In this document: piece by piece, positions 1,395-36,227 of the stretch
Position numbering within the stretch: position 1 is the first letter of the stretch
Layout: every line of letters begins with the position of its first letter
Assembly (NCBI GenBank): GCA_026874595.1
Contig: CM049319.1
Span: 19,013,101 to 19,077,100, forward strand
DNA length: 64,000 bases
DNA from: Sipunculus nudus
Taxonomy: Eukaryota > Annelida > Sipuncula > Golfingiida > Sipunculidae
Reading direction: 5' to 3'
Notes under the pieces: model-generated
Database searches by the model: none
Seen by the model: only the letters and a program-made list of their open reading frames with translations
Told to the model about the DNA's origin: nothing
Made by a program: the position numbers and the translations under genes

Positions 1395-1706
1395 CTAATG
1401 ATTTAAATCAAAGAGATCGGCGTATTTATCTTGTCTGATGAATGCCGACTGTTTAATATATGACGGCCTGTAGGACGCCCGTCTCTTCCGCATTCTCGCG
1501 TTCTGTGGTTCAACAAAAGCTTCTTTCTTGGTCGCCAATTTGCTTTCTTCGCTTGACGTCACATCCGTTTGGTTTGTGTTTCTTCTTTTAATGCATGGAA
1601 GGGCCAACATATCCATAAAAAATTCGAAAAATTCAAAAATAGTCAGAACAGAAAATCCTGCCAGTAATCCGAGCAGTCCTCCGACATCGGAAAATAATTT
1701 CTCCTC
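1395..1706 (-). CDS. Gene A exon 12: TM2 with G-F-S filter and cytosolic tail
   Basis: It encodes EEKLFSDVGGLLGLLAGFSV and LTIFEFFEFF, the TM2 pore helix with the G-x-S selectivity filter. The tail has a basic RKRRAS segment and ends YADLFDLNH. The stop TAG at 1397-1395 is followed two bases later by AATAAA, a possible poly(A) signal. The 312-nt length equals the last exon of gene B. Confidence 0.92.
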   Translation of the reverse strand, partial: EEKLFSDVGGLLGLLAGFSVLTIFEFFEFFMDMLALPCIKRRNTNQTDVTSSEESKLATKKEAFVEPQNARMRKRRASYRPSYIKQSAFIRQDKYADLFDLNH

Positions 1707-1952: not shown

Positions 1953-1995
<43 letters not shown>

Positions 1996-4900
1996 CATAT
2001 TAGACAGATATATTAAATAGATAGTGAGATAAGAGAGATTAGAAAGCTAGATAGATAGATAGATAGATAAATAGATAGAAAGATGGATTTGATAGATGGA
2101 TAGCGAGAGAGATAGAGAGATTAGATAGCTGGCTAGCTAGACAGATAGCTAGATAGATAGATAGATAGACAGATATAGACATATAGCTAAATATATAGAT
2201 AGATAGACAGATATAGAGAGATAGCTAGATAGATAGACAGATAGAAAGAGAGATAACCAGCTAGACAGATAGACAGACAGACAGATGGGGTATACAGCCT
2301 TGAGAATAAGGTCAAGAACACATGTAAATAACAGGTGCAAATCGTAATATAGTAATAGTAATATTGTGCAAATATTTAAGCTTTTAAACATCAGCTGTAT
2401 TGGTTTCAACCGGAAATAGAATAACAGAAAAAATGAAAGAATAAAAATTGACATCGATGATTGAGTGGTGGCTTTGCGATTTCCTACTATAGTTTTACCA
2501 AGTGCCTTATTTCCACACAAGAACTATCATAAAAAACTCTCACACTGATAACAGCCGATCACTCTCACAACCAGGGTTAACTACTCACGCCGTAAGCTGG
2601 TTTCTCCTCTACAGATTTGAGATTCATGTCTTGGTAGTAAACATCAACTCTTAAAACGTTACGTTCGTACTTTTTGGTGTCATTTGGGTCGTTGAACAAA
2701 GTCGGTACTACTCCAGAAAACTGCTTTCTCAAAGCATCCTAAGAAAATATAACTTCTATATTATGCTTAAATAAGTCTGATATTTGTTCTTATTGGTTGA
2801 ATACTTATTGGTTTTATTAAACAATTATTCGAAGTTGAGACATTTACAATCTTCAGTTTTAAATATAAATGAATAAATAAATAAATAATGATAATAATAT
2901 CATTTGTTATAATATATCCAGATTACAAGATTACGCTCAAGACATATAAGAATACATTATATCAATCACAAACATATATATATATATTTTAATTTTCGTT
3001 ATTTATTTATTTTTTATTCATCTTAAACATTATACATCTTTAACATACATTTTTATTTGTTTAACGATGATAATTATACAAAACATTTTTCCTACCATTT
3101 AAGTAGTATATCACAGTAGAATTACCTAAAAAGTGGGTCTTAAATGCACATTCAGATTTATCAAAAGACAGGTTTCTTTTCAAATATCACCTGCCTCATT
3201 TGTTTTAAAGAATTAATTATCACGGCGCTGGTGGCAATTCTGTATTGACACCAAACAGCAATGACTTATCTGATACCTTTTGTATCTCAAGCTATCTGAA
3301 ATATTTAGGGTTTTTTTCATTCAGGTTATTAAAGAAAAAATCCCTAGCGATCGCTCGGCGATACCAGATATCTAATAATCATGTAAACCTCCTCAACTTC
3401 AGGTATAAAAGCTATACCTTTATAGTTTAGGCATCATCATACTAACAAGACTGTAAATGCTGTTTTTTATCAGGCCATGAATTATCCAGTCACTCTGGCG
3501 TCTATTTCAAGAATAATCAACTCGAAAATAAGAACGGTTTGGGGGATATAAAAATTTGTTCGGATAATTGAGGTTATGGATCCGCGAAATCAGGTTTGTT
3601 CAAAAGAAGTATACTGCTAGTACGTTGATATATACGTTGGTCATATCAATACCAACTTTCCACATGTTATTCCTGGCATACAGTTACGTTATCTCGTCAA
3701 ATAAGTTTTAATTATCGTTCATCTTATATTCCTTTCAAAAGCAGCGAAGCATTTAGTAAAGGGAAAATTTCGGTTCCTTACTTTTAATTTCGGAACAAAA
3801 AATAAGGAAATTCGAGGTCCTACTGTAGGAAATAAAACCAATCAAAGGACTCGGGGAAAAACTTGTTTTGCGCGGCTGACTGGCTGCCGGAGCACGTCTT
3901 GTGCTAAGCAAAATGTTTGGCATTGCTTGGAGGTCATCGAGAACGTGACCAGTCAAATAAAGCCTAATAAACCTGTCCCGTTCCTGGTGGTTGTGTTCTT
4001 GTTCAGACGGCCTGTGAACAGTGTATTCTTAAAATTTTGTTCGTTGGATTTGATTGCCAGTTTTCATTTCAGCTCGAAGACTTTCAGTTTTGTTATTTAT
4101 CCATGAAATAGACACCAGAGCGGCCCACTGAATGAAAGTTTGTGAAAAGCTTAGCTGAAGATGAGACATTAGACTTTGGATATTGAAATAGAGGGGGTTC
4201 ATATAAAAGAGAAAATGAAAGCGCCAAGGGGAAAGGCATGATATAGAAGCACTGTAATGCTGCAATCTGGGGTAGTAATTCGTTATTGTGTATTATTTTG
4301 TACCTCTCAGATGTTTTAGGTAAAAAAAGAGACGCGTCCCGATCTGTGCCCCCGCTAAAGCCGTCCCGTTAAACCTTATCTGTATAAGTTCGGTTGAGCC
4401 ATCAGCATTAAATCAAAGAACTTAAAAGCCTACATCCGATAGGCTGCACCAACCCGCTTCTTTAAACGCTACCTACCCTCGGCTTATATGAAATACTTAC
4501 GCGGTAAGTATCTGATGGCCAAGAGCACGCGTGTACAGTGTTTGGTAGTTAGATTCTCTATGGATAGAAAAGGATAATTTGAATAATAGTTATATTGAAC
4601 TTAAACGGAAGGCAAATTTTCAACATTATAGTCCACTGAGTTATCCCTATACGATCTATCGTTAAACCACGCCTATAAAATTACCAACTTGAAATCTGTA
4701 TGCGAGGTGGTCCCTATTGCTCCCCACACGTGTTTGCATTCACTTATTCGGCCTATATTGCGAGCTTCATTCGTGCATAGGTGCATCACTTTATATTTAT
4801 AAAAATTCATTTATGATGTTCCTGAATCCGGATGATGTGCCTATTCCACACAAAAATCTAATCGATTTTTCATTGGCCTATACAATCACCCAAAAAAAAA

Positions 4901-7900
4901 AACATACACACCCGCACCAATGGGGATGAATGCAAACTCTTCTAGTGGATGCAATAAAACGCTTAATATAATGCAATAAAGTTCAAGTTACAAAATTCAA
5001 AGCCATATACGGCCTACTGTGAAATTAACAAAATAACAAGGTTGCTTATTTTAACTTGCCTGCATGAACGGGGACATTTGCTTTTAATTTGGTTTTCCCG
5101 ATACATGTTGTTAACCTCGTATCTACAGTCATCTAAAATATAACAATATTCCTTGTGTACAATGCCTTATCTACAGGCGGTTTTAGGTAGGCAACCCAAT
5201 GACCTTACAAACCTTTAAAATATTAATTATTTTCTACAAAGTTCCAGGAATAAGTTTCAGTTGTACTGTAAAATTATAAGTACAATGCCTGGTATTATTT
5301 TCTGATATAAAAGTTTTCTTTTTAAAGCAAAGGCCCCCTTTTAAATAAATTCTAGAGCCGCCTCTATTGCGTGCTCCACAAAATAACTAAAGCCTTGAAC
5401 AGCTTATTCTTCGGACTTAAAGCTTGAATAAAATTTTCAAAATGGCATAATATCTTATTTTTACAATATCCTTTAACATGATTAAAAAAATTAACAATAA
5501 GTTGAAGAATAATTTACTTAACATTTAAAGTCAAGATAAAATAAAAATAATACGATAAAATATTTAATCTAAGCATAAACATTAAAATTCCTGTGTTGAC
5601 AAAAAATCAGAATTAATATTTGTCACACTTACAAGGGCATGCATGTATGATACATTATAAGATGCAACAAAGCTACATTATATAACTAAAATTCATTGTA
5701 TAACCAAGATACATTATCTGACTAAGCTATATGTAACATGACACTAAACAAACTATGTCAAAGTAAGAACTGCGTGCTTTCTTTCAATATCGTGCTGTAG
5801 CAAGTTATGTCGAGTTATTTTGAGGATTTAACAAATGTTGAATATAAAAACAGCTCACGTACTTTAAATCTTGAATAATAATTCAAAAGAGCTATTATGT
5901 CTTATTTTTAAAATGTTTAACATATTTGTAACAAGTTTTACAATAAATAGCAGGAAAAAAAATGCTTACAATTTCATTAACATTAATGTTGAAAAATGCA
6001 CAAAATGTTTCTTTTGAAAAATAAAAGAAATTAAGCTAAAAACAATTCCAGTTTCCAATCAGTCCTGACAAGTTTTACCTTGGGTTATATTTTTGATGTC
6101 ACACGTGCGGACGTTGTCATAGTTAAATGCGTTGCCGTATTTTGGAACCATTGATTCAGCACAACCACATCTCTTGATCACGTGACTTTGGTAACAAGTC
6201 TTAAAGCAGGCCTGAAATAATTATGATATAAAATATGCCTGCTGGCCCGTATAATTGGGTACATTATCCGCATGTATCTTGCAAGTTCAACTTCGACCGA
6301 AATAGTCTTTAGACTGATTTGATGATTATTTTTCATGTGCAGGTTAAAATATGTTAACAATCATTATACCTATACAATGTAACAACCAGACTGAATATTA
6401 CCTTAATAAGAACGTTTTTGAAGTTATTAGGGAAAACATAAACATCATACTTTTTTTATTATATTGTTAAATTATCATTAATTTGGGATTTTACTGTCAA
6501 GAAAATTGTTGTTATAGATATAGCTGAGTCGGTTTTTTTTCAGCATAGTCTCCTGGTAATACAAGGAATTAATCTAAGTAAAAAAAAATTCAATTAAGTG
6601 AAATTTCGTCCTTAACCATATTATTGTTTGCTATTCGCATTAAAAAACACACATCTTCATATATCACTATTATACTTTTGTACCTTTATACGAGGCTATG
6701 AAGAAAAAAACTTGTCTCAAGTACATTGAATGACCACTAGATGACACTGATTATAACATAAATTATTTCAGTAAAAATTAATTTTCACGATTTTAAGAAA
6801 TATCCCCTCATACAATAAAATAAAGGAACATAGCAAGCAGAGCGGCAAGGAAGAGACGTATCCAATGGAAACCAGATGTAGTAGTACATACCAAAGTACT
6901 ATATTTGACCGGGAACTGTTCCTCAAACACGTTGAGATGATGCCTGGGTAACTTTGGGTCTACACAGTCTCCGTAAGGATCCGGTATTCTGATGATCTGA
7001 ACCTGATGACCAGACAGAATTTATTGATTAACTTTTGAATTCATTCATGCAAATATTTTTTTTTAATTTTGGGGGAGGGGATGCAATAACCGCCTACATT
7101 TTTTAAAATGCTAACCTAACATAGTATATGTACATCTGCAGAATTCCTTTCGGGTTTCGGACTACATGAAACTGACAGGGCAGTATCACACGCTTCCTCT
7201 CATTTTATATCCTGGCATTAACCAGGCCCGGTAACTAATGCACCTGCGGACCCTGGGTTGATAATCGTCCCATTCCAAGATCATACCACCGAGGGACTCC
7301 CGAAAGGCGCACTCGTTTGTGAGTGAAACACGACCGTTTGGCGTGGCCTTCGCATTAAACCTGCAGAGCAATCACCCTGGGCGGGAGCCGACCATGAAAA
7401 ATTTCGCCGCCTCGGCTGGGATGCGAACTCACGATCTCCCGGCTTGAGTCCTGAGCTTTCCCGGCTTGAATCCTGCGCTCAATTCCTGAGCCACAGAAGC
7501 CGGTTTCAAAAAAACATTATATGCATGGACGGTATGGGAGCTGTGGGGGTTCCATACATCTTGAGTATATTTTCCTATTTGATTATTAACATTTAATCAC
7601 ATTATAATACATAACTATAAAATGTTCTCAATGAAATTTCTTAGTAAGGTAAACACGAACAATTGATTACAATACGATCGGGGTTTCCTCATTCTGCGTT
7701 AGTGATATGTACTAATTGCTGCTTTATTTTTTAAAGTAGTAGAAATTTTTAAAAGTTTAAAATTTGCTATATTATTATTGTATATTGTCAAAGAAATTCT
7801 ATGTCAGATTTGTTAGCTCTAAGCCGAAATCTACATAAATTAATACCTCAGAATCAACTCAGAAATGTTTTATTTTGACGATTATCAATTTGATCTTTGG

Positions 7901-10900
7901 TTAGCCCTGTCTAGCCCTGGAAGATTATATTTGAAAATGGGAAAATGTGTACCTTTTTAATGCCGACAGATGTAGCGTATCCAGGTGACACGAGAATTCC
8001 CTCCTCCTCCGGAAATGGCTTCTTGTCTTGGTCGTGAATGACGACTCTGGCTCCGGCTGAGTCTCCTATAGCCTCAACGTACTCGTCCTGGCCAATGTTC
8101 AGTACCAGGGATAAACCTAAAATAAAATTTTAAATAATCCTCAGGAAAGAGTTATTTCAAAATGGAGCTGATAAATGTACAAGTATTTGAGACAATTTAT
8201 TCTACAAGTGATTCGAAAAAATATTCCATAACAATATGTTGTCGAGAGGTGCCCCCCTACCGTTTTTCCGTCCTATCTTGCTCAAAGTGTACACAGATCC
8301 GTTTGACTTCCATCCAGAGTTAAAGATATAGCAGTTCCCATGGACAGTATTGTAGAAAAAGGTGAAAGCGCTGCATCAAATAATAATTAATTATGTTAAA
8401 TTATTAACTGGTGTAACCTATACTCAGCGAGCAGTCATTCATTTCGCAATTTGCAATGTCTTGTAAGCAATAAAATAACTAACAATACGTATGTCTTTTT
8501 TGTTTTTAACAGTTCATTTTAGACATGACCCAGTATTGCAGCAAAACCTGTGATACAAATATATAACAGTATCATATAATCTGTTTTTTTTTACGGTTCT
8601 CTATTTTCTTATAAAAAAAAGTACACTCATTGCCAGCGCACCTTCATTTCTCGCTGGAATGGTCTTTAAAACCATATATCGCCGCCTAAGAACTTGAGTG
8701 TCTGGTTATATTTTTTCCGATTACTCAAAGCAACAGGGGCAAATTCGTCGATATAGGAAACCATGATTCGTTGTGTGTTGATGCGAAACTTGAAGCGATC
8801 CACGTTTAAGTTAAAGGAATGACTCCATATTTCCGTCTGCACGGCAGTTTATAACAACTGAATGTGAATTATTGGCCGTATATGATTATACATCCTATTG
8901 AGAACGGGTATATGTGAAAGGATAAAGAAGGATAAAGGTGTAAAATTCATTACACCTTTCAACGTACTCATCTTTACAACTGGAACCATCATATTTGCAA
9001 CTCAAGATGAACTCGGACTGCCGGAAACCAAGGGCTTTCTTTTCCTCCTCCGGAAGATCGGCAGGAACCTCAGTAACTTGTTCCTCCTTTGCAAAGATTC
9101 TCTGGTTTGGATGCGTTCTGGGAACTTGCTCCCCGGTATGGGCTGCGGGCCTGGGGGATCAGTGGTTGTTTTATCTGTTGTTTCTGGGTGAGTACTCTTC
9201 ATTGTTGAAGGTTTCGTCGTCACCGTTGTACTCCTAATTGAACTTTGTTCCGTAGTTCCTTCAGTGCTTATGTAATTGGTTGTGACTTGCACGGTAGAGA
9301 GTCCCGTGGTTCTTTCAGTAGTGTGCATGGTTGAAGGGAGGGAATAAAAGCCAGTTGTCTGCATGGTAGATGGCGTTGCTGTTGCGATTGTGGTTCCGGG
9401 AACTGCAGTGACTCCTGCATTAAATTAAAGCTCTCTGTCTTTCTGCCTTCATGACTTTATGACAACTAGTATTTCTGTCAGGTAGCTCTCTGTACTTACC
9501 CATGTGTCCGTCTCCTCAGGATATAAACATCTGAGTTATCAGCCTGTCTGTAAGCAGGCCTATCAATCTGTCGTTCAAAATGATCGTCATCTTTTTATTC
9601 GTCAGTCTTTCTGAATGTCTCTGTCTACTACACTTACTTAAAAAGCCAGCGGCAGCTACGCAGTTCAATAATTACATATCAATGTTAATGTAACAACATT
9701 GTCATTAAACAGTAAAACCTAAACCTACATTCGGTAAGGGCAATCCTAGTTTGACTAACACTTAATAAGCACTGAAATTGACAAATTATCGTGCTGAGAG
9801 AACAACAATTGTCATTTTTTAAACATTGAATTAAAAAAAGATAGTATTAGGTAAAGTTTGTTTTAACTGCTTAATCCTCCGTCGTTTGTCCGCGTTTGTC
9901 CGTCCTTTCGTTCTTCCGTCCTGCCTCCTTCTTTCACCATATATCTCTACAACCCCTGCTGCTTTCCTCATCAAATGTTGTATACCTACTTTTCACATGA
10001 TTGGCGTGTCATTATATTATGTAAGTGGCGCCTTTTATGTCAAACTACTTTCTGGAATCCAAACTGACCCTTTTCCTTCAGATAAGTCAGTAAAAAAGAA
10101 ATACATTAGGTTTCAGATCATATACAAGAATTCTTTGGAGCTAAGTGAGTTAAAATGAATACTACATTGATTAGAATAGACCTTTTCGACGAGCATGCTC
10201 ATTGTCCATAACGATCTTTTGCAGGGTTCGGGTCCAATTGTCCAGCATAAAAAATTTTGTCAAAAATGAAATAAATACATACTAGAAACTCCGGGAAGAA
10301 CCTCACAGGTAAAGAAAAGCTTTTATTACTTTGAAGCCTCATAGATATAACAGGTTACACTTTTTATTTAAAAAAACCCGAACATTCAGTGTCAATTATC
10401 GACGACAGGTGTCGCATGTGTAACGGGAAAGGTCTTGTACCGTGCACAATCTTTCACCTTTCATCTATTGAACTCTTCCACTAATCATTACTAGATTTTC
10501 CTGACATATTGATCACATGATTTACCTTTCATTATAAACTGCGGGTTCAGCAACTGTCGCTGATCTAAAATAGTCGGATGATAGACACGATGAGGGGACT
10601 ATTTGAGCCTCTGTCACCTTTAATTTTAGAAATACTCATAGCCAGTGGTCATTTGTCTTTTAAATAGCATTTTTGAGTGGAAACTACACACCTATATATT
10701 TACTGCACAGTGCTAGACGGTCTTTGGAACAATCTTCCGTCTTCCATCTGTAGCTTTTCTTTGTGTCCAGAATGACGCATGAGCGTCGTCTGTCTGGCTC
10801 TCCGCTTTCCCAGTTATTATAACTAACTTGGTGTTTACCCCAGTAGTACTTGTTGTTACTTTTCTGCAGCAGTCCAATCAATGCTTTATTGGAGCTGTAG

Positions 10901-11063: not shown

Positions 11064-11135
<72 letters not shown>

Positions 11136-12380
11136 TTAATATAATATATGATTCTATTATTATTGTTGTTAAATAAAAAAATGAGAAAAAAATTAACAGA
11201 CAAATAGAAAGTTGAAAATATGGAAGGCCCTGAATGTCTGACCGGATCAGTGTAGTTGAATAGGTGTTTATATACGTTTGTTTCATGTTCCATACTTTCG
11301 ATTATTCAAACGGTCATTATGGAAGTAAACGCATCATGGAAGAAATTTAAATACCGGCGACGTGCGCAACATCAGGAAGCATGATGAAAAAAAGTGTTAT
11401 ACGTCACATATCAGTCTCAGTATATACTACAACAGGAAATACAGGCATGCAGTTTACCCCTGTTAAAAACTGCCACAAGATCTTTGTTTGACCTACTAAT
11501 TAGTTAACATTGTCACTAGCAACCAATGATTACGTACAAACTCATTTAAGAAAGTCATTGTTTATGTGTATGTTTGTCTTAATCTGGCATTCCATCCGGA
11601 CGTTTACAACAGCAAGACATGTTATCTTAAGAAATAAACGCGCAAATATGGTTCAAAAACTTCTTTTGGTCCAGCAAAATACATCGCATCAGGAGTACAC
11701 TTTAATACGTCACTTCAATCAGCCACAGGAGGAGTTGCACATACACAGATCCTTTTGTATGTACGTTACATAATCCCTTGGCGTTACCGGGAAGACTGAA
11801 ATTTTGCTTTGGTATTTTTTCCCCGGAGTAATATTTGCTGATTGTTAAGACTTACGCCGAGAGTATTTTATTATTTACTTCACAAACTGTAACGTTATTG
11901 TGTGATTTTACATACCCTCATGTTTGTAATATTGGCTCAGGGTTTTGACTTACATTAAGGATTGCTTTTGACTTACAGGACTTTAATATTTGGTTATCGC
12001 TTTGGCTTATCTCCAGGAATAAAACTCCCCCCCCCCCATTGTTTTTTTTAAATTCCATAAACAATAATATTCGCTTTACGTTTTTACGTTTTGACTAAAT
12101 TTCCCAGAGAACGTAATGCTTGTTTGCTGACTTTCCCACGGAGATTTGACTTACATCGATGACTAATATTTGCTTAACGCTCTCAGTTACCTCGCAGACT
12201 GCAATGTTTGTTGAGTGTTTTGCCAAGCTATAGCCTCAGGCGAGTCTATAACGGCTAGAGACATTCCGATTGAGTTGCATTTGCTCAAGGCTTCATTACG
12301 TTCGTATTTCTCGTCACTGTACAGAGTATAGCAGAACCCACTTGTTGGCTCTATTGTCTGGCTGTTACAAGTCTGGACTG

Positions 12381-12445
<65 letters not shown>

Positions 12446-17178: not shown

Positions 17179-17188
<10 letters not shown>

Positions 17189-17231: not shown

Positions 17232-17235
<4 letters not shown>

Positions 17236-20838: not shown

Positions 20839-20912
<74 letters not shown>

Positions 20913-21306: not shown

Positions 21307-21367
<61 letters not shown>

Positions 21368-24300
21368 TAGCGAGAGAGAGAGAGAAAGAGAGAGAGAGGG
21401 GGGGGGGGACGTTCTTGTTGTTTTATCAAGTAACAACAATATTGTAAGCATATCAGGAAATGTCATACTTACACTAATGCGTATTTTTTAATGCAGTCCA
21501 GACTTGTGATTCGCAGACAACTGAGCCAATAAATAACTATTGCTTCACTCTGTTTGACGACAATGTCTACACATACACGAATGCACTCACAAAATGTCAT
21601 TCAATCGGCATGGAGGTTGAAAAAATGCCTGAACCAGAGAAGGTAGCTTGGCAGGCTGCTGAACAAACCCCACAGTCGGCCAGGTATGGTTTTATATACT
21701 AGACCCCCCAGGCCCATTTGCCTTTGGTAACCTCATGTCTTACACAGATTCCCCTCTCTGTTAAATACTGTATGCTTTTTAACAAGCATTGATGAAGGAC
21801 AATCGTACTATGTTCCTAAAAGCAAGGCCCCCGTTGCGACGAGATCAGAACTTGCTCCCACAGGCCGCCATGCCATGTGTATCATAACTTGGAACCAGTT
21901 CCCACGTGATACGGCCATAAAATTAACGACCAACATAATCCAACGTCACAAATGATCTTTTTGGGGAGCATTACCCGGGGCGACTACCTGGCAGATTTCT
22001 ATCGTATCATGGGACAGGCTCAGGGCGCCGGGAATGCACACTCCTTTTATATTTTACCTCTATGATAAAACCAAACTAATGTGTAAATTATTTCATTTAC
22101 ATTCCTGAAACGCTAAACTATGCCAGTTTCATCTTTACTATATTATCAAACTTGAAAACAATTTATTATAGGATTTATATAAATTTGTATTATTTTAGCT
22201 ATTGGGGTATGGTACTAGTGAATAAGCAAGATATGGAATATCAAGGAACAAGCAAAGCGGGACCATTAAAAAAAACATGTAGAAATCTGCATTCTAATGA
22301 ATGCAGGCCTCCGCTTTTCAATCATGCGGGCCATATTCAGAGATAAATTCTGGCATAAGTGACCGTACAGTTGAGAATATTCCTTGATGCCGTTTCCAAA
22401 TCCAGATCAAATACCGTGTCCATACCAAAATCTAATCGATTCTTCTTTGGCCCATTCCCGAAACGCCCTTCAGCTTCATGAGATTCCATTCATGACTGCG
22501 TGAATTATATTGTGTACAAATAAACACACGACCAGGAATTAACGCATACGTTCTTGTCGGAGGTTATTACTAACTTGGGATAGTAAGTATGTTTAAATGG
22601 TTTTGTACAGTTTCCTTTGATTGCTTGAATATGATTTTTTTTATCTGTTGTAGCACGGATACCGCCTGGATCGGTGTAAAAAAATCATTCGGTAAACACA
22701 GATGGGTTATCACGGAGGCAACTAATACTAATTCGGCCAATGGACAGCCAGATACTACCAAGCCTTGTGTATACATGGACCGAACAGACAGCTATAAATG
22801 GAGAACGGACCATTGCTCCGGGCATCATTTGGCTTTATGCGGTGGTCAATTAGGTAAACAAGCCTAGAAAAATAATAATGATAAACAATATTTATATAGT
22901 GCCGAAACTAACGGATTACAGGAAAAAAAAAACTCCTTTCGAGACATTTTATAAAATCATGATGAGGAAACTCTGTCTTAAGTAAAGCATTACATTTTTT
23001 TCTGTTCCAAGTATATCGCAATATGTTTATGATGATGCGTGTATGATCACAGTTAGAAAGTAATATTTTAACAAAACACCAGAACCATCAATGCCAGACA
23101 AAGAGTTATTTAGAGTTACACCTTAACCGATATCTACCCCAAAGCAGGGTATGCTACCTGACTGCAAGGGGGAAATATTGCCTTTTTAAATGTAAATATA
23201 TATCCTTTATTTTATTTCTTATAAATTTACAACGTAAATTATGTTGGAGTTGGTGTTCAGTTTACTTTTATCACAATCATTAATGTATCATTTTATGCGA
23301 CACAGAGATGATTTTTTTAAAAATCGTACCATGATCTCTATAATGAAGATTTGCGTGTTTTACTTAATATTGCATTCATTAATAATATAATTCCTTAATG
23401 AAAATTAGGTAAATAATATTAAACAATGGGTGTATCGAAAAATAATTTTGCCAAAAAAGGTTTACATCATGTACGACTGAATGATGGTGTATTTTATTCT
23501 ACATAAGTCATATTAGAAAAAAAGTAAAGTAATTAATAGAGGAATTCGGAATTATTTTCCCTACCATCGAATTCACCTTCACTAGCGGCGCCAGCTGTTC
23601 CAACTACGCTTTCAACTACGCAAGTTACAACTGAACCAACTTCTGTTCCCACCTATCAAGTAACAACTGAACCGACAACACTTCCAACTACGCAAGTAAC
23701 AACCGAACCGACTAAACTTCCAACTACGCAAGTGACAACCGAACCGACCACGCCTCCAACTACGCAAAATACAACTGAACCAACTTCTGTTCCCACCACT
23801 CAAGTAACAACTGAACTGGCAACACTTCCAAATACGCAAGTAACAACCGAACCGACTACACTTCCAACTACGCAAGTGACAACCGAACCGACTACTTATC
23901 CAACTACTCAAATGATCACCGAACCGACCACACTTCCAACTACGCAAGTTACAATCAAACCGACTTCTGTTCCAAGCACTCAGGTAACAACCGAACAGAC
24001 TACTTATATCCAACTACTCATATTATAACCGAACCGACCACCCTTCCAATTACGCAAGTAACGACCGAACTGACCACTGTCCGAACTAATCAGGTTACAA
24101 CCGAACCGACCACTGCTCCATATACAAAAGTAACAACCGAACGGACCACTCATTCAACCACTAAATTGATGACGTCATCTTCTGCGGTAACTGCCGCATC
24201 GTTTATGACGTCACCTCCAGGACCCGAACCAATTCCAGGGAGCATGTATCCGGAGCGTATTCGTCCCAAAGAATCTTTTGTGAAAGAGGAAGATGTGACC

Positions 24301-27300
24301 GAAATTCTTGCTGACCTTAGTGAAGCAGAAAAAAGAAGACTTGGTTTTAACCAATCAGAATTTATCAAAAGTTGCAAATTCGACGGCGCCGATTGCGATG
24401 ATGAGTAAGATTTTATTATATATTATTGATTTGCATGTAATGTGTTGATATAATAATATCATCCAACGTTTGTAAATGTATACGAAAATGCGATTGAAGC
24501 AGCATGCAAAACCCGATCCAATTTACAACCTAAATGTCCATTTGACATGATTATAACAAAATAATTAAATAAACATATTTTTATTTTACGTAGTAGAAAT
24601 GTTTTAAAATTGTTATGGAAACATATACCATTATTTTCATGGGAACGGACACTATTGTATCAAATGTATGATATAATCTAGAGTATATAGGAAGAGATAA
24701 ATGGGGTTTAAACATAAAAGGGAAGTGTTAGCATATCTAGTATATTACATAATACTTGAGTGGTAATTCACCATAGATTGAAATTTTCGATATTAATCTT
24801 GTTCAGGAATTACTCTTCGTTTCAGTACTTTTACATTCTTCTACAACACTATCCACGGCAACTGTTACATATTTAATTCTGGATGGAAATCGAAAACTCG
24901 AGTACTCGGGTCCAGCAAGACTGGCCACAAAAGCGGTAGGTTCTGAGTGTTTAATTAAAAGTAATTTTTTTTTTGCCGCGGATGCACATGAGAGTAATGT
25001 TAGCTAGTTGATAAGTATACAATACATTTACTTGCGCCTAGGAGGTTATGCTTCTGTCGGCGTTATTTTTTCTGTTTTTCTGCTTGCATGTAAGCAACAT
25101 TACTCGAAAAAGTTATCGGCGGACTATTCAGGTTAGCTTGGCAATGATACAAGGAACAAAAGTTATAAAACTTGGGAGGTGATCCGGATCACTATCTTGA
25201 TCAAGGAATCTTGAAAATTGCTACATTTCTGACAATTCCATTAAAGAGTTATGCAAAAAGACCTAAGCGGAGATCTGCGCTCTCTGGTTGCTTTTCTAGT
25301 TTTGTCAAAAAATTATTTTTTGATTGGATCTTTGTCCCGACCACGCCTAGTATGCTTTCCGACAAGGAAGGTACAACGTAATCCGTTATATGACATCCTT
25401 GGTAAGAGTGGATGAGACGAGACGCATTGTAAATCATTTTAATCAACCCTCTGGATGACTGGTTGAAATAGATATGCCAAAACAGTGTTAAAAACAGACC
25501 TCAGCAATTTGATTTTGACCTTCAAGCGGCGAAAGTTTAAGAAACGTCAATCGTAGCTGTAAGCGTATATTGATGACAGCTAACTGCATGGTACCAAACA
25601 AGGCAGTAGAGATAATACGAAACTTTGTTTCTATAAAAGCTCGATTTGAAACTATAAATATGTTGAACACAACCGGTTATACGAGCCTCATGCCGTCAAG
25701 AAATAACCTGGTGATCTAAACGAATGTAGGTCCCTGTCAAACCCGAGAGTTTGACACTGCCTCACGATTGGAAGTGTTAAATGCCTTCGTCAGGTCTATA
25801 AAATGATGTATAGGTTCTGCACTGGTAGCTATTAAAATGTAAGATCATATTGATTGTGTCAATGGTGCTCTTAAGGTCGTTCTTTCCAGCAAGTAGTTTA
25901 TGATGCGGTTCAGCATTAAGAGGGCCATAATCTTTCCTTCAATGCTCAAAAAAGGATTTGCCTTTGTGGCAATATGTGTACATATGCCTTTGTAGTGGAT
26001 GATAACGAACTGTAATGTTTTGGTCATTATCTCGTCGTCTTCTAAAAACCGCTGTATCAGTTCTATCTGTCTATATAGGGGTCTGGACAGCTGAGTGGTA
26101 AAACGCTCGGCCCTCTTCCCTGGCGACCCGGGTTCTATTCCCGGCGTGGCTATGAGAGTGGGTTGTAGTTGCCTGTGCAAGGTCGGTGGTTTTCTCCGGG
26201 TCCTCCGGGTTCCTCCAACGACTATCGAGCGCCAACAACCCAGCCATGGAGAATGTCTCGTATTAGTTATCATAACTAGTTGTACAATCCATGTAAAATA
26301 AATAAAGTTTAATTAACAGACAGGACAAAGCATTATCTCTTAAGATCTCAGGGGGGGGGGGGGTGATTTCATCAGGACCCCGGGTATTCTCCACTTAGCT
26401 CTTTGACGGCCTTCTGTCCTTCTGTTGAATACACCTTTTTTGTCCTGTTTGTTTTTATACTTATGTACTGAGCAATGTGATATTAACTTAATGCGTTATG
26501 TCGTTGATGTTTTATATGCCTGCACGTATTTGGAAGAAAACTTATCAAAAATTAATGTGAAAAAAGAAAGAAGTCTACGTTGGTCAAAACTGTTCACACG
26601 CCATATATGCTCAAACAAATGCACTTGCAATTAAAAGGAACAGGTTTACAACCCATTATATCATAAGTATCATTAGATTCATTTTAACGTTCTAGCACTG
26701 CAAGATCAGCTAAAATGTTTCACGATGTTTTCAAGTTCCCCTTTCCCAGAGGGTTCTAGGTCACGCTCATCTGACATCTAAAGCCAACCTTTGCCATTGA
26801 GAAATAGAATCAGAGACAAATACCACAGATAAATATTGTTGCAACATATCATCTTGTTTTCCTTCAGGTTTATCCCTGGTACTGAACATTGGCCAGGACG
26901 AGTACGTTGAGGCTATAGGAGACTCAGCCGGAGCCAGAGTCGTCATTCACGACCAAGACAAGATGCCATTCCCGGAGGAGGAGGGAATCCTCGTGTCACC
27001 TGGATACGCTTCATCTGTCGGCAATAAAATAGTATGTACAAATGAAGGTTTACTAGAATGCAATATGATAGAAATATCTATCGGCTTTAGGAAATATGCT
27101 TCATCGAGTTGATAAACTACATTTAGCAGGGTGAGCCTCGATCAGTGCCACAGGATTGTATTTTGTTGTCACTTACTGACGACTTAAGTAGGACTATCAC
27201 ATCCCTTTAATGTTTGATCCTGAAGGTATTTTTATTTTGTTTTGAAACCCGACGATGCATCATCAACTCCCGCACGCACACCAAAACAACTGAGAATGAA

Positions 27301-30300: not shown

Positions 30301-33300
30301 TTCTGTCATTTTCTTCGTTAACAGGTCCAGGTTTCCCGTTTGCCGGACCCTTATGGAGACTGCGTCGATCCCGCTGTTAGAAGGAGCCATCTGAACGTAT
30401 ATGAGGAAACGTATCCTGTCAAGTACAGCACGATGGTGAGTATGAAGACCTAAAACATCAAGTTATAATGTAACACATTCAATGCAGTACAACACTTAAA
30501 ATATTAAAGGGGCATATTACGATATCTGACGTCTATTAACAAAAGGTAATACCTTGAACCCTTTATTTAAAAACATATGAAAACGCCGATCCCACCGTAC
30601 GCAGGCTGTTCGTTTTGTTTATATCAACTTATTTATAACGAGGGGTCCCCTCAAAATAATAAAATGAAAAATACGTCACAGAATCGTTATAAGAACCTGT
30701 ACTGTCTCTAGAGATATTACCTTAGTCATTTAAAAGGTACACAAAGCAAACCAGAAATCGCACACCTTCCACAGAAAAGATAGATGAATATCTGGCTTAA
30801 CCACAAAGAAAAACGGACGGAAATCTGTAATTAAAGCACAATGGTTAGAATGAAGACAATATAACTGCGTTGCTTAGGAGTTTTTGCTTTTTGCTAGAAC
30901 GCTACATGTGGTCTCGGTACTCACGACACCTTACGAGATCATCGAAACAAACCGTGAATATGACAACGGTATTTGTTATGAAATTACAATATCTAGGCAA
31001 TATTGCTCCGGGTAGGTTTAAAATATGATTAAATGCAAATGTACATTAAATGCAAATGATTCAAATAAGTCATATAGATATGCACATTAAATTGAGTAAA
31101 ATCAAAACAAAGGTAAAATGAACAAATGTAAATGCAAAAAAAAACACTTTCACTAAACTTGAACTTTCTTTAAATACACAAAACAGAAACTTAATGTGGG
31201 CAAGCTCTTTTGATATAAATTATAGTGCGATGACTATTGAGAAATGACTCACAAAATTTTATATAGATTGAGCAATGAAAGTCTATAAAAAACATTTGTT
31301 GAAAAATGGAAAAGTTATTATCAAAATATATTGTAATTGCTATTGTATTTGAAACACTATTGTAACCTTACTCCAGTGCAAATGCAGCACTTATGATAGT
31401 CCTATACTTTAAAACACATATTCAGCGTATAACTTCAACTTCATCTGTGAAAACAATTACACTTGCAGTTTAACCCAAGCATTGGTAACTGATCATGCGC
31501 TAAAAACAGAATAAGTAAGCCAGCTATGTTCTTTTTAAATGATAATATAAGTTTCGCTTACTTCAGTCAGAGTGAGCATTCTAACAGTAATTGTATAATA
31601 CAAGGGGATTATATACCAATGATCTTGGATCTCTAGGATGTACTTATTGAGATCGCGTATGATACAGAGGCCCATGTATGTCTGTTCATTTCAGGCTTGC
31701 TATAAAACCTGCTACCAACGTCATGTGATCCAGAAATGTGGATGTGCGGACTCTCTTGTGCCCAAATTTGGATACGCATTTAATTACATCAAGGTCGTCA
31801 CCTGTGAGATGAGAGATATTAAACAAGGTAAAGCAGATTAAAAGTTAAGTAAAAACTTTCACTCTCCATCATTGATGACGCGAATTCTAACTTGACCTCG
31901 GGTCCACTTTAGCTCCCGCATTTGCATAACTCAACTGCCATGGCATGAACTCGGACTTGCATTCGGGCTCGGACAGTATAGACTCCACTTTACAGTCCAT
32001 GGTACCGTTTTTTTTAAACTGTATCCATTTATTACATCGATTCCAGTCAGAGCCACAAAACATCGAATTGTTCAACTAGCATCCCTTGCTAGTCGTATTC
32101 AAGGTCGGCAACGGGCCATTACATATTATAAAAAATTGATTAAAAAACTATTTATTTCAATATGTCATATTGTCACGACTTCCAAGTTCTAAAAAATGTA
32201 TTGATTTGAGATTTACTAAAGGGTTCTTGAGTAAGTTTGAACAAAAATACCACGTCAGACTTTAAAAATTAACGATTTTAATTCAAAAAGACAAAAGAAA
32301 AAATATACTCACAGATATTTTGTCCTTACACAGCCTCTTATTATTATAAGTAATAATCTGGCGAGATACAGAGTAATCTTAAATATTGAAACTTTAGTGT
32401 CCATAAAGTATTTTCACAAAGCGATCCCTTAATTCCTTTGTGGCTGATAACAATGATTACGATATGTGTACAAATGTTCGGCTTCTTCACGCACTGAGCT
32501 GTGACCTACGACCTCTAACTTGCGCTATAGCCTAGAATACGATACAGGCCATGTGACCTTGAACCCGTAGTGCCTTTTGACACAACCCGGAAACATACTA
32601 ATGTCAATGTTGTACCATGAGGTTTTCGACAACACAGTTTTATCCTTTTAGGGATTACTTTTCAAAGTCCCTGACACATGGCATGATTCTCCCTCATTCA
32701 CACTTGCCCTCACATCCATATATCAATAAATCAATGTCTATCTTAAAGGTAAGAGCAAGCAGAATGTCGTATTTCCATATACAGAGTATCTTCACGTCCA
32801 ACAGTGTCTGTCCGGTTTGACTCGTCGACACTTAACAAAGAAACGTTTAACGACTTCTCAGCACAACTGCAGACATACTGATGTACGTCATGAATCACCG
32901 TAAGTTCATTACATAACGATTAACAAATCACATATTCCAATCCCTCTTTAAAATTTTTCATACAATTCGTCAATTTTTTATACTGGACACTACGATGGTT
33001 CCCTTGGCATCTGAAACTGACTTCAAAGAGCTAACCGATGCCATCAAAGGCCCAAAATGCTTTTAAAACCTTACTTTGTCAGAACACAATATAATAACTA
33101 ATGAAGAATACATATAAAACCTACATCGTCAACACTAGCTATTGACACATATGAACAATGTATATATTATTTCACATTTTGCCATGATTTTGTCTCAAAT
33201 AGATCGATTCGTTCTTTATAAACTGAACCTTACTATGTTAATATGTTGAGCTAAAGTTTTAGTTGTTTCTTCATTACAGATGACTGCAGATACGAAATCA

Positions 33301-36227
33301 GTAAAATGTATGGAGAAAACAAAATCCAATGTGACTGTCCTCGGTCTTGCAAGTATGCCATCATTCAAATCCGTTATATCCTCAAATTAGTTTTTCTCTT
33401 AGTGTTTGATTTTCCTAGTACAAAAACCGAAACTGTAACATGATTTTAAATTATGGGATACCTAAGCATATGTCCTCATTCGTATGCCCCCCCCCCCCTT
33501 CATTGGAGACCTGGTTTTCATTGCCGTCATCGTCAGTCGTCGTCGTCAGTAGAATATCTTTTGAACGCGATAAATTTGGAAGTGCTGCAAATTTTCCTCC
33601 GAAATTTAATACACTGATTGTTACCACCTAAATCTCGGAGGAGTTCGAAACTGGGTAACCTTGACCTTCGTCTTCAAGGTCAATTATGCCAAAAAGTTTT
33701 GAAGGATATCTTTTGAACGCAATAACTTTTGAAGGGCTGCATATTTTCCTGCGAAATTTAAAGCACTGATTGTTCCTCTGAAAGTTGGTAACCCGGTGAC
33801 CTCCACGTCATCTTCAAGGTCAGATCTGCCGAAATGTAAAATTTTGCGAAGCCTTCAACATTTGAAGTATTTCACATTTTGTCCTCAAATTTGGTACACA
33901 AATTGTCATTACAACGTTCTCAAAGGAGCTTGAAAACCGGTGATCTTGACCTTCATCTTCAAGGTAAATCTGCCGAAATATAAAATTGTTTGAGTTATTT
34001 TGTGAACATGATAACTTTTGAAGTGCTGCATATATTCTGCCAAAATTTGACACTCTAATGGTTCCTTCTGAAATCTCCTAAAAAATTCTCAATGGAGTTC
34101 GAAAGCTGGTGACCTTGACCAATATCTTTGAGGTCAAATCAGCTAAATTATAGATAATGTCTTGTGAACGCGATAACCTTTGAATGGCTAGGGTTTGTCC
34201 ACCCAAATGTGAAACACTGATTGTTCCAACCAACTCTTGCATGAGTTTGGAAACTGGTTACTTCACAGGTCAGATCTCTTACCGTCTCTTCTTTGATACA
34301 ACCTATATGCAAAAGGGGGGACATCTGTTTTTGCTAGTGCGAAAACAAGCCATTCTGGTTTGAAGAAATTTTCCTTATTTAAGGGGTACGATTAGAGCTG
34401 CGTACAAGGCGGATAATATAATACCCCAACAGAATTTGTCCACAATTGTTTTTAAATCTAAAAACTCCTTTTAGAAAAGAATTTTGCTAAAAGTATCCAA
34501 ATGACACTTTACTATTTTTTTATGATTTATCATATCTGGTTGTTGACCTCGGTCGGGCCAATTGCATATCAATTTTTTTTATCAGGAACTCGTCACATGA
34601 CATGGCGCAGCAAGACTACATTTGTATGCTTGTTATGCTAAATGTACATTATATCCAAGGTGTTCAGATTGGGAGACACACATCCATGAAAGTAAGAGGG
34701 AGCTATCCTTCCTTTCATTGGGAATCTTTTATTATATAAATGGTAAAGGACTCAAAAGCCGGGAGATCGTGAGTTCGAATCTCAACCGCGGCGGTGAGAT
34801 TTTCAGTCTCCAGGCTTAATAATTGGAATACCGTGCCCCACGGCCGTGTTCAACTCACAAACCAGTTCCTCGGTGGTATGACGCGACAATGTTGTAGATT
34901 ACACACCCAGGGCCCGCAGGTGGATTAGTCACCTGGCTCAGTAAACGCCAGGATATTAAAGGAGAGGAACCGCGTGCTTTTGCCCTGTTCTGTAGTTCGA
35001 AATCGGAACTGAATTATGCAGATGTATCTCTTAGTTAAACTACCATTAAAAACGGAAGCAGTTACTAAATTATCGTATATTTATTATAGTAAGTTTGAAC
35101 GTATTTGCCTACAGGAAGGTTTGAGGAAGCGTTTTTCTGTCACCGCACCGACTTTGTTCCGAAACCAGAACGACACACGGAAATATGAACGTAACATACT
35201 GAAGGTAGACGTATTCTATAGCGACCTCTGTCTCAAAACTGTCGGGGAGGAACATGCCTACGGGGAAAGGGTTTCTCTGCTTAAAAAGAAAACTGAACAT
35301 GATTGAACATATTAAAAGTGCTCTCCACATACACCTTTTATCAGTGAATTTGGTTACAGCTGTAATTGTAATATTTTCTAGTCAGGATCAATTTTGACAT
35401 AACATTTTAAAACATAATGATATGGCGAATTGACTATATAGTCATCTGTGGAGAACACAGATATGCAATCAAACTCCCTTTGTATCCAATAACATTTTGT
35501 TTACTTTGAATTTTAACTATGTTTTATCTCATTTAAATATACAAGTCTAATGTGTCATTGCGCAATCGTATTTTATATTTTAACTGGAAAGTGTCATTCA
35601 AGATGTGTCATGAATCAGGCACTATACACATATGCTTAATATAAAAGATAGCCGTTCAAAGTATGCAATATATTAATTCTTATCTTAATATGATCATCGA
35701 ATCAAACCGAAAGAAGTTTAAGGGGCCTGCCGAGGGTTATTTTTAGAGGCGGGACCGATTTTGAGGTGAAATTTTTAAAGATAGAAATATTTGGTTGAAC
35801 CACCTAAGTCCAGCATATGCCAAGGGGCAAGCAAGCATGCCACACATTCTATGTCCGTTCAGTTCTCTTTTAGTACAATCTTATATTAATTCATAATTAT
35901 ACTTTCCAATTATAGGCGGAAAAATTACTCTCCGATGTCGGTGGATTGCTTGGATTATTAGCAGGGTTTTCTATTCTGACTCTGTTCGAGTTTGTTGAGT
36001 TTTTTATGGATCTCCTAGTCCTCCCCTGTCTTGGAAGAAAAAACAAAATACAAACAGACGTGAAAGAGGACGATATCAACAAAATGGCGATCACGAAGGA
36101 GGCCTTTACCGAAGCCCCGGTGCCACCTTTGCGGAAGCGGCGGGCGTCATACAGACCTTCTTACATTAAACAAACAGCGTTTGACAGAAGGGATCAATAT
36201 GCTGATCTCTTTGATCTCAATCATTAG
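18805..36227 (+). CDS. DEG/ENaC-family cation channel with inserted C-type lectin domain and expanded mucin repeat (paralog B), 12 exons, frame broken in places
   Basis: Predicted exons: 18805-18952, 20229-20493, 21497-21683, 22654-22853, 23586-24404, 24826-24935, 26868-27031, 30325-30435, 31695-31827, 33280-33352, 35090-35270, 35916-36227. Exon number and order match gene A, and most exon lengths and intron phases are identical. About 901 codons result if three small indels are set aside: two in the TM1 exon (about 20338-20358 and 20396-20440) and a 2-base insertion near 24009. Read literally, the TM1 exon stops at 20366-20368. The protein has the HG motif, TM1, paired furin-type sites, a lectin domain with a QPD motif, about 16 copies of a 12-residue VTTEPTTLPTTQ-like repeat, the CGC and CDCPRSC cysteine motifs, TM2 with G-F-S and a basic C-tail. 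It is either an intact gene with assembly indels or a young pseudogene. The later exons look well conserved, which favours function or very recent loss. Confidence 0.8.
20229..20493 (+). CDS. Gene B exon 2: TM1 and furin-type sites, frame broken twice
   Basis: It encodes KVKKIFWIMVVLVTLAAFGF (TM1). Six residues present in A after TM1 are absent. Compared with A there is a net loss of one base around 20338-20358 and of four bases around 20396-20440, so FPAVTVCNMSPVKQ and the RKKR/RVKR stretch lie in other frames and a stop is met at 20366. The GTACGT donor is in phase 1. Confidence 0.75.
20838..20911. repeat. (TA)n microsatellite flanking SINE units
   Basis: A TA run with one TTTA interruption in gene B intron 2. 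Confidence 0.95.
20930..21295 (-). mobile_element. Tandem tRNA-derived SINE units
   Basis: Two related units (about 20930-21060 and 21180-21290) share GGCCGATC, the CCGGCGT-CCAA-CG-TTCGC block and CTTTTATGTCACCCCGTAAC. On the minus strand the second holds a perfect Pol III B box, GGTTCGAATCC. Flanking TA/GA microsatellites are typical of SINE tails. Confidence 0.65.
21307..21409. repeat. (TA)n, (GA)n and G-run microsatellite
   Basis: A TA run is followed by (GA)n and a G run, ending about 90 bp before gene B exon 3. Confidence 0.93.
21497..21683 (+). CDS. Gene B exon 3: first half of C-type lectin-like domain
   Basis: It encodes FQTCDSQTTEP, then NYCFTLFDDNVYTY and ALTKCHSIGMEVE, a long-form CTLD start with cysteine pair and helix 1. 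It is 187 nt, phases 1 to 2, same as gene A, with a GTATGG donor. Confidence 0.87.
22654..22853 (+). CDS. Gene B exon 4: second half of C-type lectin-like domain with QPD motif
   Basis: It encodes TAWIGVKKSF, RWVITEATNT, NGQPDTTKPCVYM and YKWRTDHC, ending HLALCGG. It shows the WIG core and CTLD cysteines 2-4, plus the QPD tripeptide that marks galactose-type specificity in classical lectins. The WND position reads WRT, so calcium-dependent sugar binding is uncertain. Confidence 0.88.
23586..24404 (+). CDS. Gene B exon 5: mucin-like tandem-repeat stalk and finger re-entry, 2-base insertion
   Basis: About 16 copies of a 36-nt unit encode a 12-residue repeat close to VTTEPTTLPTTQ, typical of a densely O-glycosylated stalk. 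A 2-base insertion near 24009 shifts the frame. Past it the repeats continue in the new frame, then PPGPEPIPGSMYPERI, an acidic helix, and SEFIKSCKFDGADC. The acceptor is placed at 23585 by phase and by alignment with A; CCAG at 23591-23594 is a weaker alternative. The donor is GTAAGA, phase 2. Confidence 0.82.
23600..24165 (+). repeat. Coding minisatellite, 36-nt unit
   Basis: About 16 units close to ACTACGCAAGTAACAACCGA plus 16 further bases run inside gene B exon 5. Codon-level variants (SVP, TYP, TAP, LVT) show units at different stages of divergence. Gene A has no such regular array. Confidence 0.9.
24826..24935 (+). CDS. Gene B exon 6: GNCYIFNSG segment
   Basis: It encodes FTFFYNTIHGNCYIFNSGW and a short divergent loop. 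It is 110 nt with canonical sites (TTTCAG acceptor, GTAGGT donor). Confidence 0.9.
26083..26300 (+). mobile_element. tRNA-derived SINE
   Basis: A tRNA-like head has A box GCTGAGTGGTAAAACG and B box GGGTTCTATTCCC. A body with GGTTTTCTCCGGGTCCTCC resembles a conserved core seen in several metazoan SINEs (from memory). It ends in an AATAAATAAAG tail and lies in gene B intron 6. Confidence 0.7.
26868..27031 (+). CDS. Gene B exon 7: GLSLVLNIGQDEY palm segment
   Basis: It is 164 nt, with the first 96 nt identical to gene A exon 7 and only scattered changes after. It encodes LSLVLNIGQDEYVEAIGDSA, then GARVVIHDQ and SPGYASSVG. The donor is GTATGT. Confidence 0.92.
27233..27440 (-). mobile_element. 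Diverged tRNA-derived SINE fragment
   Basis: On the minus strand GGTCGTGAGTTCGAACCTC matches the T-arm region of the SINEs at 7120 and 34741, followed by related body sequence. It lies in gene B intron 7. Confidence 0.5.
27900..28925 (+). repeat. Tandem repeat of about 330 bp, three copies, with GGAC/AGAC tail
   Basis: CACCAGTCTGCAG(A/G)AACTGATG recurs at about 27906, 28248 and 28579, with the following 300 bp also repeated. The block ends in a GGACGGACAGAC-type tail and an AGCTCA...GAGCT inverted repeat, a combination common in molluscan repeats (from memory). Short open frames here are repeat artefacts. Confidence 0.8.
28975..30145 (+). repeat. Second repeat block with direct repeats and GTATCCCC stem-loop end
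   Basis: Two close copies of ATGATATGAAAGAAATCTGT with about 80 further bases lie at about 28990 and 29200, and a diverged third near 29710. The block ends with (CGG)n and an imperfect stem, AGTATCCCCCGAC / GTCTGGGGATAC, at 30112-30139. It is probably a non-autonomous element in gene B intron 7. Confidence 0.65.
30325..30435 (+). CDS. Gene B exon 8
   Basis: It encodes VQVSRLPDPYGDCVDPAVRR, then LNVYEETYPVKYSTM. It is 111 nt, phase 0/0, with a GTGAGT donor. The preceding intron of about 3.3 kb is filled with repeats. Confidence 0.9.
31695..31827 (+). CDS. Gene B exon 9: CGC cysteine-rich thumb
   Basis: It encodes ACYKTCYQRHVIQKCGCADS, then LVPKFGYAFNY and TCEMRDIKQ, with all expected thumb cysteines. 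It is 133 nt with a GTAAAG donor. Confidence 0.9.
33280..33352 (+). CDS. Gene B exon 10: CDCPRSC element
   Basis: It encodes DDCRYEISKMYGENKIQCDC, then PRSC, keeping the full C-x-C-P-x-x-C motif that A has lost. The donor GTATGC gives phase 2. Confidence 0.85.
33540..34290 (+). repeat. Degenerate tandem repeat of about 150 bp
   Basis: Recurrent ATCTTTTGAACGC(G/A)ATAA, CTGATTGTT and CCTTGACCTTC-TCTTCAAGGTC segments appear about five times. They lie in gene B intron 10, after a GTC trinucleotide run at 33527-33549. Confidence 0.75.
34741..35030 (+). mobile_element. tRNA-derived SINE in gene B intron 10
   Basis: The B-box-like GAGTTCGAATCTC, CTCGGTGGTATGA, CCCAGGG and the 3' segment up to GCAGATGTA match the SINE at 7120-7503. 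The 3' end lies only about 60 bp before gene B exon 11. Confidence 0.7.
35090..35270 (+). CDS. Gene B exon 11: pre-TM2 palm strand, donor uncertain
   Basis: Starting at 35090, after ATTATAG, keeps the frame from exon 10 (phase 2). It encodes NKFERICLQEGLRKRFSVT, then RKYERNILKVDVFYSDL and EEHAYG. Where A has a GTGAGT donor, B has GGGGAAAGG. The nearest GT that keeps phase is GTTTCT at 35271, a poor donor, so the 3' end is tentative. Confidence 0.72.
35916..36227 (+). CDS. Gene B exon 12: TM2 with G-F-S filter and cytosolic tail
   Basis: It encodes AEKLLSDVGGLLGLLAGFSI, then LTLFEFVEFF, and a tail with RKRRASYRPSYIKQ, ending YADLFDLNH and stop TAG at 36225-36227. AATAAA hexamers at 36461 and 36489 are candidate poly(A) signals. 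Confidence 0.92.
   Translation, partial: AEKLLSDVGGLLGLLAGFSILTLFEFVEFFMDLLVLPCLGRKNKIQTDVKEDDINKMAITKEAFTEAPVPPLRKRRASYRPSYIKQTAFDRRDQYADLFDLNH

Follow-up and report, generated by a model that had tools for sequence, protein, structure and literature searches.

Two genes for DEG/ENaC channels, each predicted to carry a C-type lectin-like domain (CTLD) inserted in the finger on a mucin-like stalk and belonging to a family in this genome, were found in the window, i.e. the whole stretch of 64,000 nt analysed (C14:19013101-19077100; the genome searched comprised 1.43 Gb in 153 contigs). In both, the finger region held the CTLD in exons 3-4 and a Thr-rich stalk in exon 5. Gene A was located on the minus strand (14806-1395, stop codon at 1395) and gene B on the plus strand (18805-36227, stop codon at 36227), in agreement with the coordinates, strands and exon order proposed in an earlier note on this DNA. 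Two exons missing from that note were added: exon 5b (A 8261-8370; B 24826-24935), carrying HGNCYIFNSGW, and exon 9b, a short thumb exon (A 4501-4557) that was looked for in gene B and not found there. The Met at 14806 of gene A, upstream of the likely start at 14770, corresponded to W in P3, a copy described below. The exons were as follows.

14623..14806, minus strand: A exon 1, N-terminus carrying the HG motif; Met 14770 the likely start
13887..14174, minus strand: A exon 2, TM1 and FPAVTVCN, paired RKKR / RVKR at the 3' end
12191..12377, minus strand: A exon 3, first half of the CTLD, from phase 1 to phase 2
10692..10894, minus strand: A exon 4, second half of the CTLD, from phase 2 to phase 1
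8968..9414, minus strand: A exon 5, mucin-like stalk and finger start; 1-base deletion at 9093-9095 relative to P3
8261..8370, minus strand: A exon 5b, AFTFFYNTVHGNCYIFNSGW
7953..8116, minus strand: A exon 6, LSLVLNIGQDEY
6892..7002, minus strand: A exon 7
6079..6211, minus strand: A exon 8, Cys-rich thumb, ACFKTCYQSHVIKRCGC
5060..5132, minus strand: A exon 9, GC donor
4501..4557, minus strand: A exon 9b, 1-base deletion relative to P3
2589..2738, minus strand: A exon 10
1395..1706, minus strand: A exon 11, TM2 (GFS) followed by the C-terminus, stop at the end
18805..18952, plus strand: B exon 1, MERKT...TTAHGIPQIDSAR
20229..20493, plus strand: B exon 2, broken, TGA at the palm motif; RKKR/RVKR pair readable in another frame
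21497..21683, plus strand: B exon 3, CTLD first half
22654..22853, plus strand: B exon 4, CTLD second half
23586..24404, plus strand: B exon 5, long stalk with TTQVTTEPT repeats, followed by the finger; start positioned by eye
24826..24935, plus strand: B exon 5b
26868..27031, plus strand: B exon 6
30325..30435, plus strand: B exon 7
31695..31827, plus strand: B exon 8, Cys-rich thumb
33280..33352, plus strand: B exon 9
35115..35264, plus strand: B exon 10, donor lost (GA against GT in P2)
35916..36227, plus strand: B exon 11, TM2 and C-terminus, stop at the end

A Pfam search of the spliced protein, suggested in the earlier note, was carried out with X at the two broken places of gene A and gave an ASC match at 47-732 (E 1.2e-83), covering positions 3-455 of the 455-position profile, and a Lectin_C match nested inside it at 183-285 (profile 4-107, E 5.1e-9), both exceeding the curated cut-offs. 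The ASC scores were 282 bits for gene A and 304 bits for P3 against a cut-off of 23.6, and the Lectin_C scores (cut-off 22.6) were 37.3 for A, 43.5 for P3, 36.4 for G1, 43.7 for G2, 46.6 for G3 and 40.8 for P2, with 42.8 for G6 and 28.2 for G4 on the second half of the domain alone. The HG motif, TM1, FPAVT palm strand, Cys-rich thumb and TM2 with GxS were all observed in A and in three further copies, P1, P2 and P3; gene B also possessed the HG motif, TM1, palm strand, thumb and TM2, but its exon 2 was broken. In genes A and B the HG motif read TTAHGIPHI and TM2 carried GFS. Thus, the earlier description of a CTLD spread over two exons, a Thr/Ser/Pro stalk and an SC-x-[FY]DG-xx-C finger within an otherwise canonical channel (HG motif, TM1, Cys-rich thumb, TM2 with GFS) was confirmed, while the palm strand FPAVTVCN, which had been given for both paralogs, was present in A and out of frame in B.

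Exon 6 DNA was 95-99% identical between A-type and B-type copies (window 7950-8118 and 26857-27029), and the adjoining exons 5b, 7 and 8 were only 64-71% alike in protein, a pattern that looks like gene conversion confined to one exon. Elsewhere in the window, inspection by eye showed minus-strand open frames at 47804-49320 with a reverse-transcriptase-like YADDTTLF, resembling a LINE-like element, and a plus-strand frame at 61668-62033 similar to the zinc-binding start of an integrase of retroelements.

The assumption that both window paralogs are sound was not supported, as gene A had two 1-base deletions and gene B five lesions. In exon 5 of A (9093-9095), TTT was read where P3 has TTTT, and in exon 9b (4501-4557) a 1-base deletion caused ALGHQ to replace the AQWPSD of P3. 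Relative to P2, exon 2 of B had two deletions, one of 18 and one of 4 bases, as well as an insertion of 2 bases, and it ran into a TGA at the palm motif; the frame of the B stalk changed near 24005-24012. Window 1-37762 aligned in inverted order, in separate blocks, to C14:18780774-18827491, the main series of these blocks being 76-97% identical with introns and flanking sequence included, from which A/B appear to be an inverted duplicate of P2/P3; the nearest gene ends of the two pairs were about 190 kb apart. P3 (coding region C14:18808428 to 18825930, plus strand) was open over 794 aa in 13 exons, with introns all GT-AG save one GC donor, and gave an ASC match at 35-720 (E 2.1e-90) with Lectin_C nested at 170-271 (E 5.9e-11). 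P2 (C14:18802238 to 18782371, minus strand) was open over 1044 aa in 13 exons with AG/GT borders; the start codons of both were taken as the first shared Met. P1 (C14, minus strand) was damaged, with a stop in exon 4 and an exon 1 lacking a start Met.

In the channel exons, A-P3 gave an omega of 0.45 and B-P2, without exon 2, one of 0.37, versus 0.05-0.22 in the seven of nine pairs of other copies with finite dS, dS being infinite in two. Only P2-P3 (0.147) and G1-G2 (0.215) among these nine had dS below 1, and the five further pairs (0.05-0.14) had dS of 1.9-3.3, near saturation. The raised omega fits relaxed constraint on A and B, which look like decayed duplicates of a pair that is open in frame, although sequencing error is conceivable for A. 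That A and B are instead functional and their frame lesions assembly errors seems quite unlikely: one lesion of A is a difference in T-run length, a usual error of long reads, but the second deletion falls outside any homopolymer run, B carries five lesions, and omega of the two genes exceeds that of the seven other pairs.

Several features indicated that the channel and lectin exons form one gene, as the earlier note had held, and not neighbours run together. When the borders of gene A were projected on the nine other copies, 73 of 77 acceptors had AG at the exact place and 79 of 85 donors had GT, one further donor having GC, whereas one or two bases off the place, over all ten copies, AG occurred in 3 of 348 and GT in 5 of 384 positions. 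This exact-place count was made since an earlier border search had permitted in-phase shifts only, and on its result a chance origin of the exon layout was rejected. In the copies other than A, four acceptors lacked AG (B exon 2 among them) and five donors lacked GT/GC, including B exon 10 and one border lying past the fetched stretch. Exon 2 ended in phase 1, exon 3 ran from phase 1 to 2 and exon 4 from 2 to 1, and exon 5 started in phase 1. The CTLD exon pair is thus a symmetric 1-1 phase module in the channel frame, and the phase compatibility across the insert noted earlier was borne out; with these matching phases and the open 13-exon layout of both P3 and P2, run-together genes were rejected. 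A lectin gene of its own, nested in a channel intron, would agree with the large introns flanking the CTLD exons on both sides. However, these exons start and end within codons in phases matching the channel exons; in the eight copies in which both CTLD exons were read, a count that includes gene A as the source of the predicted places, AG was present at 16 of 16 acceptors and GT at 15 of 16 donors; and a single open frame connected the stalk exon with the finger in eight copies (P1-P3, G1-G4, G6). A nested lectin gene is consequently considered highly improbable.

Lectin-free relatives in the same genome suggested how the single gene may have acquired the module. In three of them (C3a, C5b and C1a), a phase-1 candidate donor followed the TM1 exon and a phase-1 candidate acceptor preceded the finger exon, and no CTLD match was detected between the two exons; by eye, no module was seen between the TM1 and finger exons of C3a, C5b, C1a, C6 and one partly read C8 gene. 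A C4 relative had, by eye, a Gly/Pro/Thr-rich stretch, and a second C8 stretch, also inspected by eye, showed no finger exon. In C5a (C5:52864620-52875241), the same intron contained an extra exon of phases 1-1 that encodes collagen repeats (Pfam Collagen, E 7e-9), and phase 1 fitted around it; this is an isolated case, and the exon may be spliced in or may be left out; the nearest other genome matches to this collagen part were 39-47% identical, at C2:36.54 Mb. These observations fit a gain of the CTLD module through exon shuffling into a phase-1 intron. A general rule of module insertion was kept as a speculative reading only, C5a being one case. As the CTLD exon pair amounted to 390 bases in A and 387 in P3 and can be skipped in frame, lectin-free isoforms are possible, and such an isoform might be the main channel.

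Searching the genome with the exons of gene A, with scores computed for 150 of 194 candidates in one search and 150 of 162 in another, revealed additional copies, on C14 as well as at 46.40-46.66 Mb of C11. CTLD exons were found in at least ten copies (A, B, P1, P2, P3, G1, G2, G3, G4 and G6), G4 and G6 being represented by the second half of the CTLD only and G5, outside the ten, by a TM1 exon only; A, B and P1 were the damaged ones, and an additional CTLD half-exon was located at C11:46510899. Among the C11 copies, exon 1 was searched for in G2 only and not found there, and TM2 was read in G2 only. In a channel-exon tree of 23 rows, all from this genome (10 with lectin, 1 with collagen, 4 insert-free and 8 single-exon channels), the ten CTLD-bearing copies lay on one side of a branch with support 99/98, and the same grouping appeared in 99% of 200 bootstrap trees. 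The tree fits one origin of the lectin-bearing channels, a conclusion confined to the copies sampled because the columns are less than half filled in B, C1a and C6, a number of rows are long, and the tree takes in only a minority of the 106 ASC matches counted in the genome; C4 and C8 lie outside it and outside the motif count given below. A CTLD tree recovered the pairs P3-A, P2-B, G1-G2 and G3-G4, with one of seven inner branches starred and G6 very long.

Directly before the real exon 6 of G2, about 31 tandem copies of an 81-base unit were observed (C11:46487307-46489837), each consisting of a 3' splice site and the first part of exon 6; the array contained 30 CAG|GTTTGT sites, the real one included, and the copies are possible decoy acceptors. 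Numerous open frames, about 360-382 aa long and with nearly equal scores for Lectin_C, were scattered over many contigs (e.g. C5:66538719, C7:25357254) and perhaps represent a mobile element carrying a CTLD. A C-terminal tail, [RK]P[SA]Y...YADLFDLNH (window 1395-1480 in A), was conserved in six of six copies with exon 11 and resembles a weak PY motif plus an adaptor-binding tail. These six copies had [RK]P[SA]Y where the PY motif of ENaC subunits as given in PMC8791634 would read L/P-P-x-Y.

The stalk varied widely in length, with 167 residues in P1, 337 in P2, 88 in P3, 86 in A, 111 in G3, 152 in G4 and 60 in G6, and consisted of 53-68% Thr+Ser+Pro in these seven copies measured; as judged from candidate acceptors, it was about 390 residues in G1 and only about 25 in G2, while that of B was frame-broken. 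The arm may fairly be read as a brush-like, ligand-bearing extension. In the CTLD, three cysteines of the second half were invariant in the ten aligned copies, and W and I of the WIG core were each kept in nine of ten. EPN/QPD and WND are motifs of calcium-dependent sugar-binding CTLDs. Here, [EQ]PD was present in seven of the ten aligned domains, the remaining three having QPN, QPA and HPE, and WND (calcium site 2) was replaced by W[KRSQ][TSA] in all ten; canonical calcium-dependent sugar binding is for this reason doubtful, and a protein or other ligand appears as likely. Glycan binding as the default reading was accordingly not supported.

Nonsynonymous divergence (dN) was higher in the CTLD than in the channel exons in 11 of 11 pairs, by 1.4 to 4.2 times. 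Since dS was raised as well in close pairs (CTLD versus channel exons, 0.145 versus 0.038 for A-P3 and 0.438 versus 0.105 for B-P2) and was infinite for the CTLD in 7 of 11 pairs, this divergence is no proof of ligand-driven selection, and diversifying selection on the CTLD was dropped as an explanation.

Two R-x-K-R motifs exactly 9 residues apart were located at the end of the TM1 exon in 11 of 11 copies with this exon (the ten copies and G5), with 3 codons lying between the second motif and the end of the exon; CTLD exons followed in the ten. This pair, just before the CTLD exons, was absent from the earlier note and is a new observation. Between the palm strand and the finger motif, R-x-[KR]-R occurred in none of the five lectin-free relatives (C3a, C5b, C5a, C1a and C6), two of which had a looser R-x-x-R, twice in C5b and once in C5a; the sole other R-x-[KR]-R in P3 and P2 was situated after TM2. 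From the motifs we infer furin-type cleavage at the paired sites.

The architecture of CTLD plus stalk, its recurrence and the two open frames can be read firmly from the predicted genes. Whether these genes make up a subfamily of tandem DEG/ENaC channels that is furin-primed and gated or positioned by its finger-borne arm is, in our judgement, evenly balanced. The channel would be a surface trimer, in which a furin-type protease would cut both R-x-K-R sites and release the 9-residue peptide. Because the double cut would free the N-end of the CTLD, each subunit would, on this proposal, bear a lectin-like head held to the finger by the stalk alone, and binding of a protein, glycan or matrix ligand to the head might position or gate the pore through the finger. 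Alternatively, the arm may serve as a mechanosensory tether that anchors the channel to matrix or mucus, so that force on the stalk and not ligand chemistry opens the pore. Such a role is consistent with the Thr-, Ser- and Pro-rich stalk and with the account, in the part of PMC7958617 available, of DEG/ENaC and matrix as a mechanosensitive complex with N-glycans as potential tethers; a tuned force tether, though, might not tolerate stalks ranging from 60 to 337 residues in seven copies, and we regard the tether as rather doubtful. Still less probable is a non-conducting surface receptor for recognition or adhesion, for instance in immunity, with the channel part as a scaffold. Tandem copies with divergent CTLDs do resemble recognition receptors, and C-type lectins are greatly expanded in bivalves according to the portion of PMC10140915 seen, a point that counts only if the animal is a bivalve; however, TM2, GFS, the HG motif and the thumb cysteines were kept in the copies read for them, and the channel exons are under constraint. 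Of the proposals, the ligand-gated or ligand-positioned channel is judged the most likely. The outer finger is a site of regulation in DEG/ENaC channels, and a lectin head on a mucin stalk there would offer a natural test family, allowing direct tests of whether binding, pulling or cutting at the finger opens the pore.

In the literature, covered as titles and abstract starts, no lectin-bearing DEG/ENaC was found, and to this extent the earlier remark that no described channel of this layout is known was upheld; predicted-protein databases were outside the scope of the search, so the architecture may already be deposited there unnoticed. In the main text of PMC10140915 as available, which deals with bivalve C-type lectins with extra domains, the words channel, amiloride, ENaC, ASC and sodium occurred 0 times; its figures and supplements were outside that count, so an unnamed entry there is possible. 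The word 'lectin' had 0 occurrences in the accessible parts of PMC9822975 and PMC9949801.

Among solved chains, the CTLD scored best with the yolk sac IgY receptor (3.6e-18) and mannose receptor 1 (2.7e-13), these scores being summed over several CTLDs with a best single stretch of about 1e-5. The mannose-receptor family, closest by score, comprises multi-CTLD type I receptors, not channels. The Polycystin-1 family provides a channel-complex subunit with an extracellular CTLD, of a fold and topology differing from DEG/ENaC. A CTLD in the chordate 'Polycystic kidney disease protein' is mentioned in section 2.4 of PMC10140915, as far as the text was available; P3 differs in that Pfam found ASC and Lectin_C only. 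The EGAS channels of C. elegans (named in the available part of PMC10424705) likewise join DEG/ENaC to an extracellular module, which is EGF and not a CTLD; in P3, a Pfam scan up to E 1 gave ASC and Lectin_C only and no EGF family.

A further parallel was to ENaC itself. The best-scoring solved chains for the channel part were gamma-ENaC (2.4e-57), beta-ENaC (1.3e-55) and alpha-ENaC (4.4e-52). With the lectin skipped, the alignment of P3 with gamma-ENaC ran as far as query residue 115 (gamma 111) and resumed at query 174 (gamma 236), and because it breaks between gamma 111 and 236, the insert falls in the stretch that holds the GRIP domain. GRIP lies between finger helices alpha1 and alpha2 and is called unique to ENaC in the part of PMC6197857 available. 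As described in the accessible text of PMC8791634, ENaC has paired polybasic tracts with the preferred furin sequence R-x-[RK]-R, where double cleavage leads to activation (in alpha-ENaC at R178 and R204, 26 residues between), and these tracts are tied to the vertebrate move to land; the word 'invertebrate' had 0 occurrences in that text. Vertebrate ENaC (SCNN1A/B/G) and the present family are therefore alike in having paired polybasic furin-type sites between alpha1 and alpha2, as far as the available parts of PMC6197857 and PMC8791634 describe them; they differ in that the vertebrate channels have GRIP strands at that place, whereas in the present family the two sites, spaced 9 residues apart, precede a CTLD and mucin stalk. 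This comparison points to paired polybasic sites that arose independently of ENaC, with different cargo, a reading taken from the presence of the pattern in 11 of 11 copies and its absence from five of five lectin-free relatives, not from a tree including ENaC. The human kidney sodium channel is switched on through paired protease sites of this type. A wider reading, in which independent ENaC-like double-furin priming in an invertebrate lineage is combined with an unlatching lectin-on-mucin arm and the phase-1 intron acts, in this channel clade, as a docking site for foreign modules, as the collagen exon of C5a may suggest, is put forward tentatively; if true, the collagen repeats could assemble into a triple helix above the trimeric pore.
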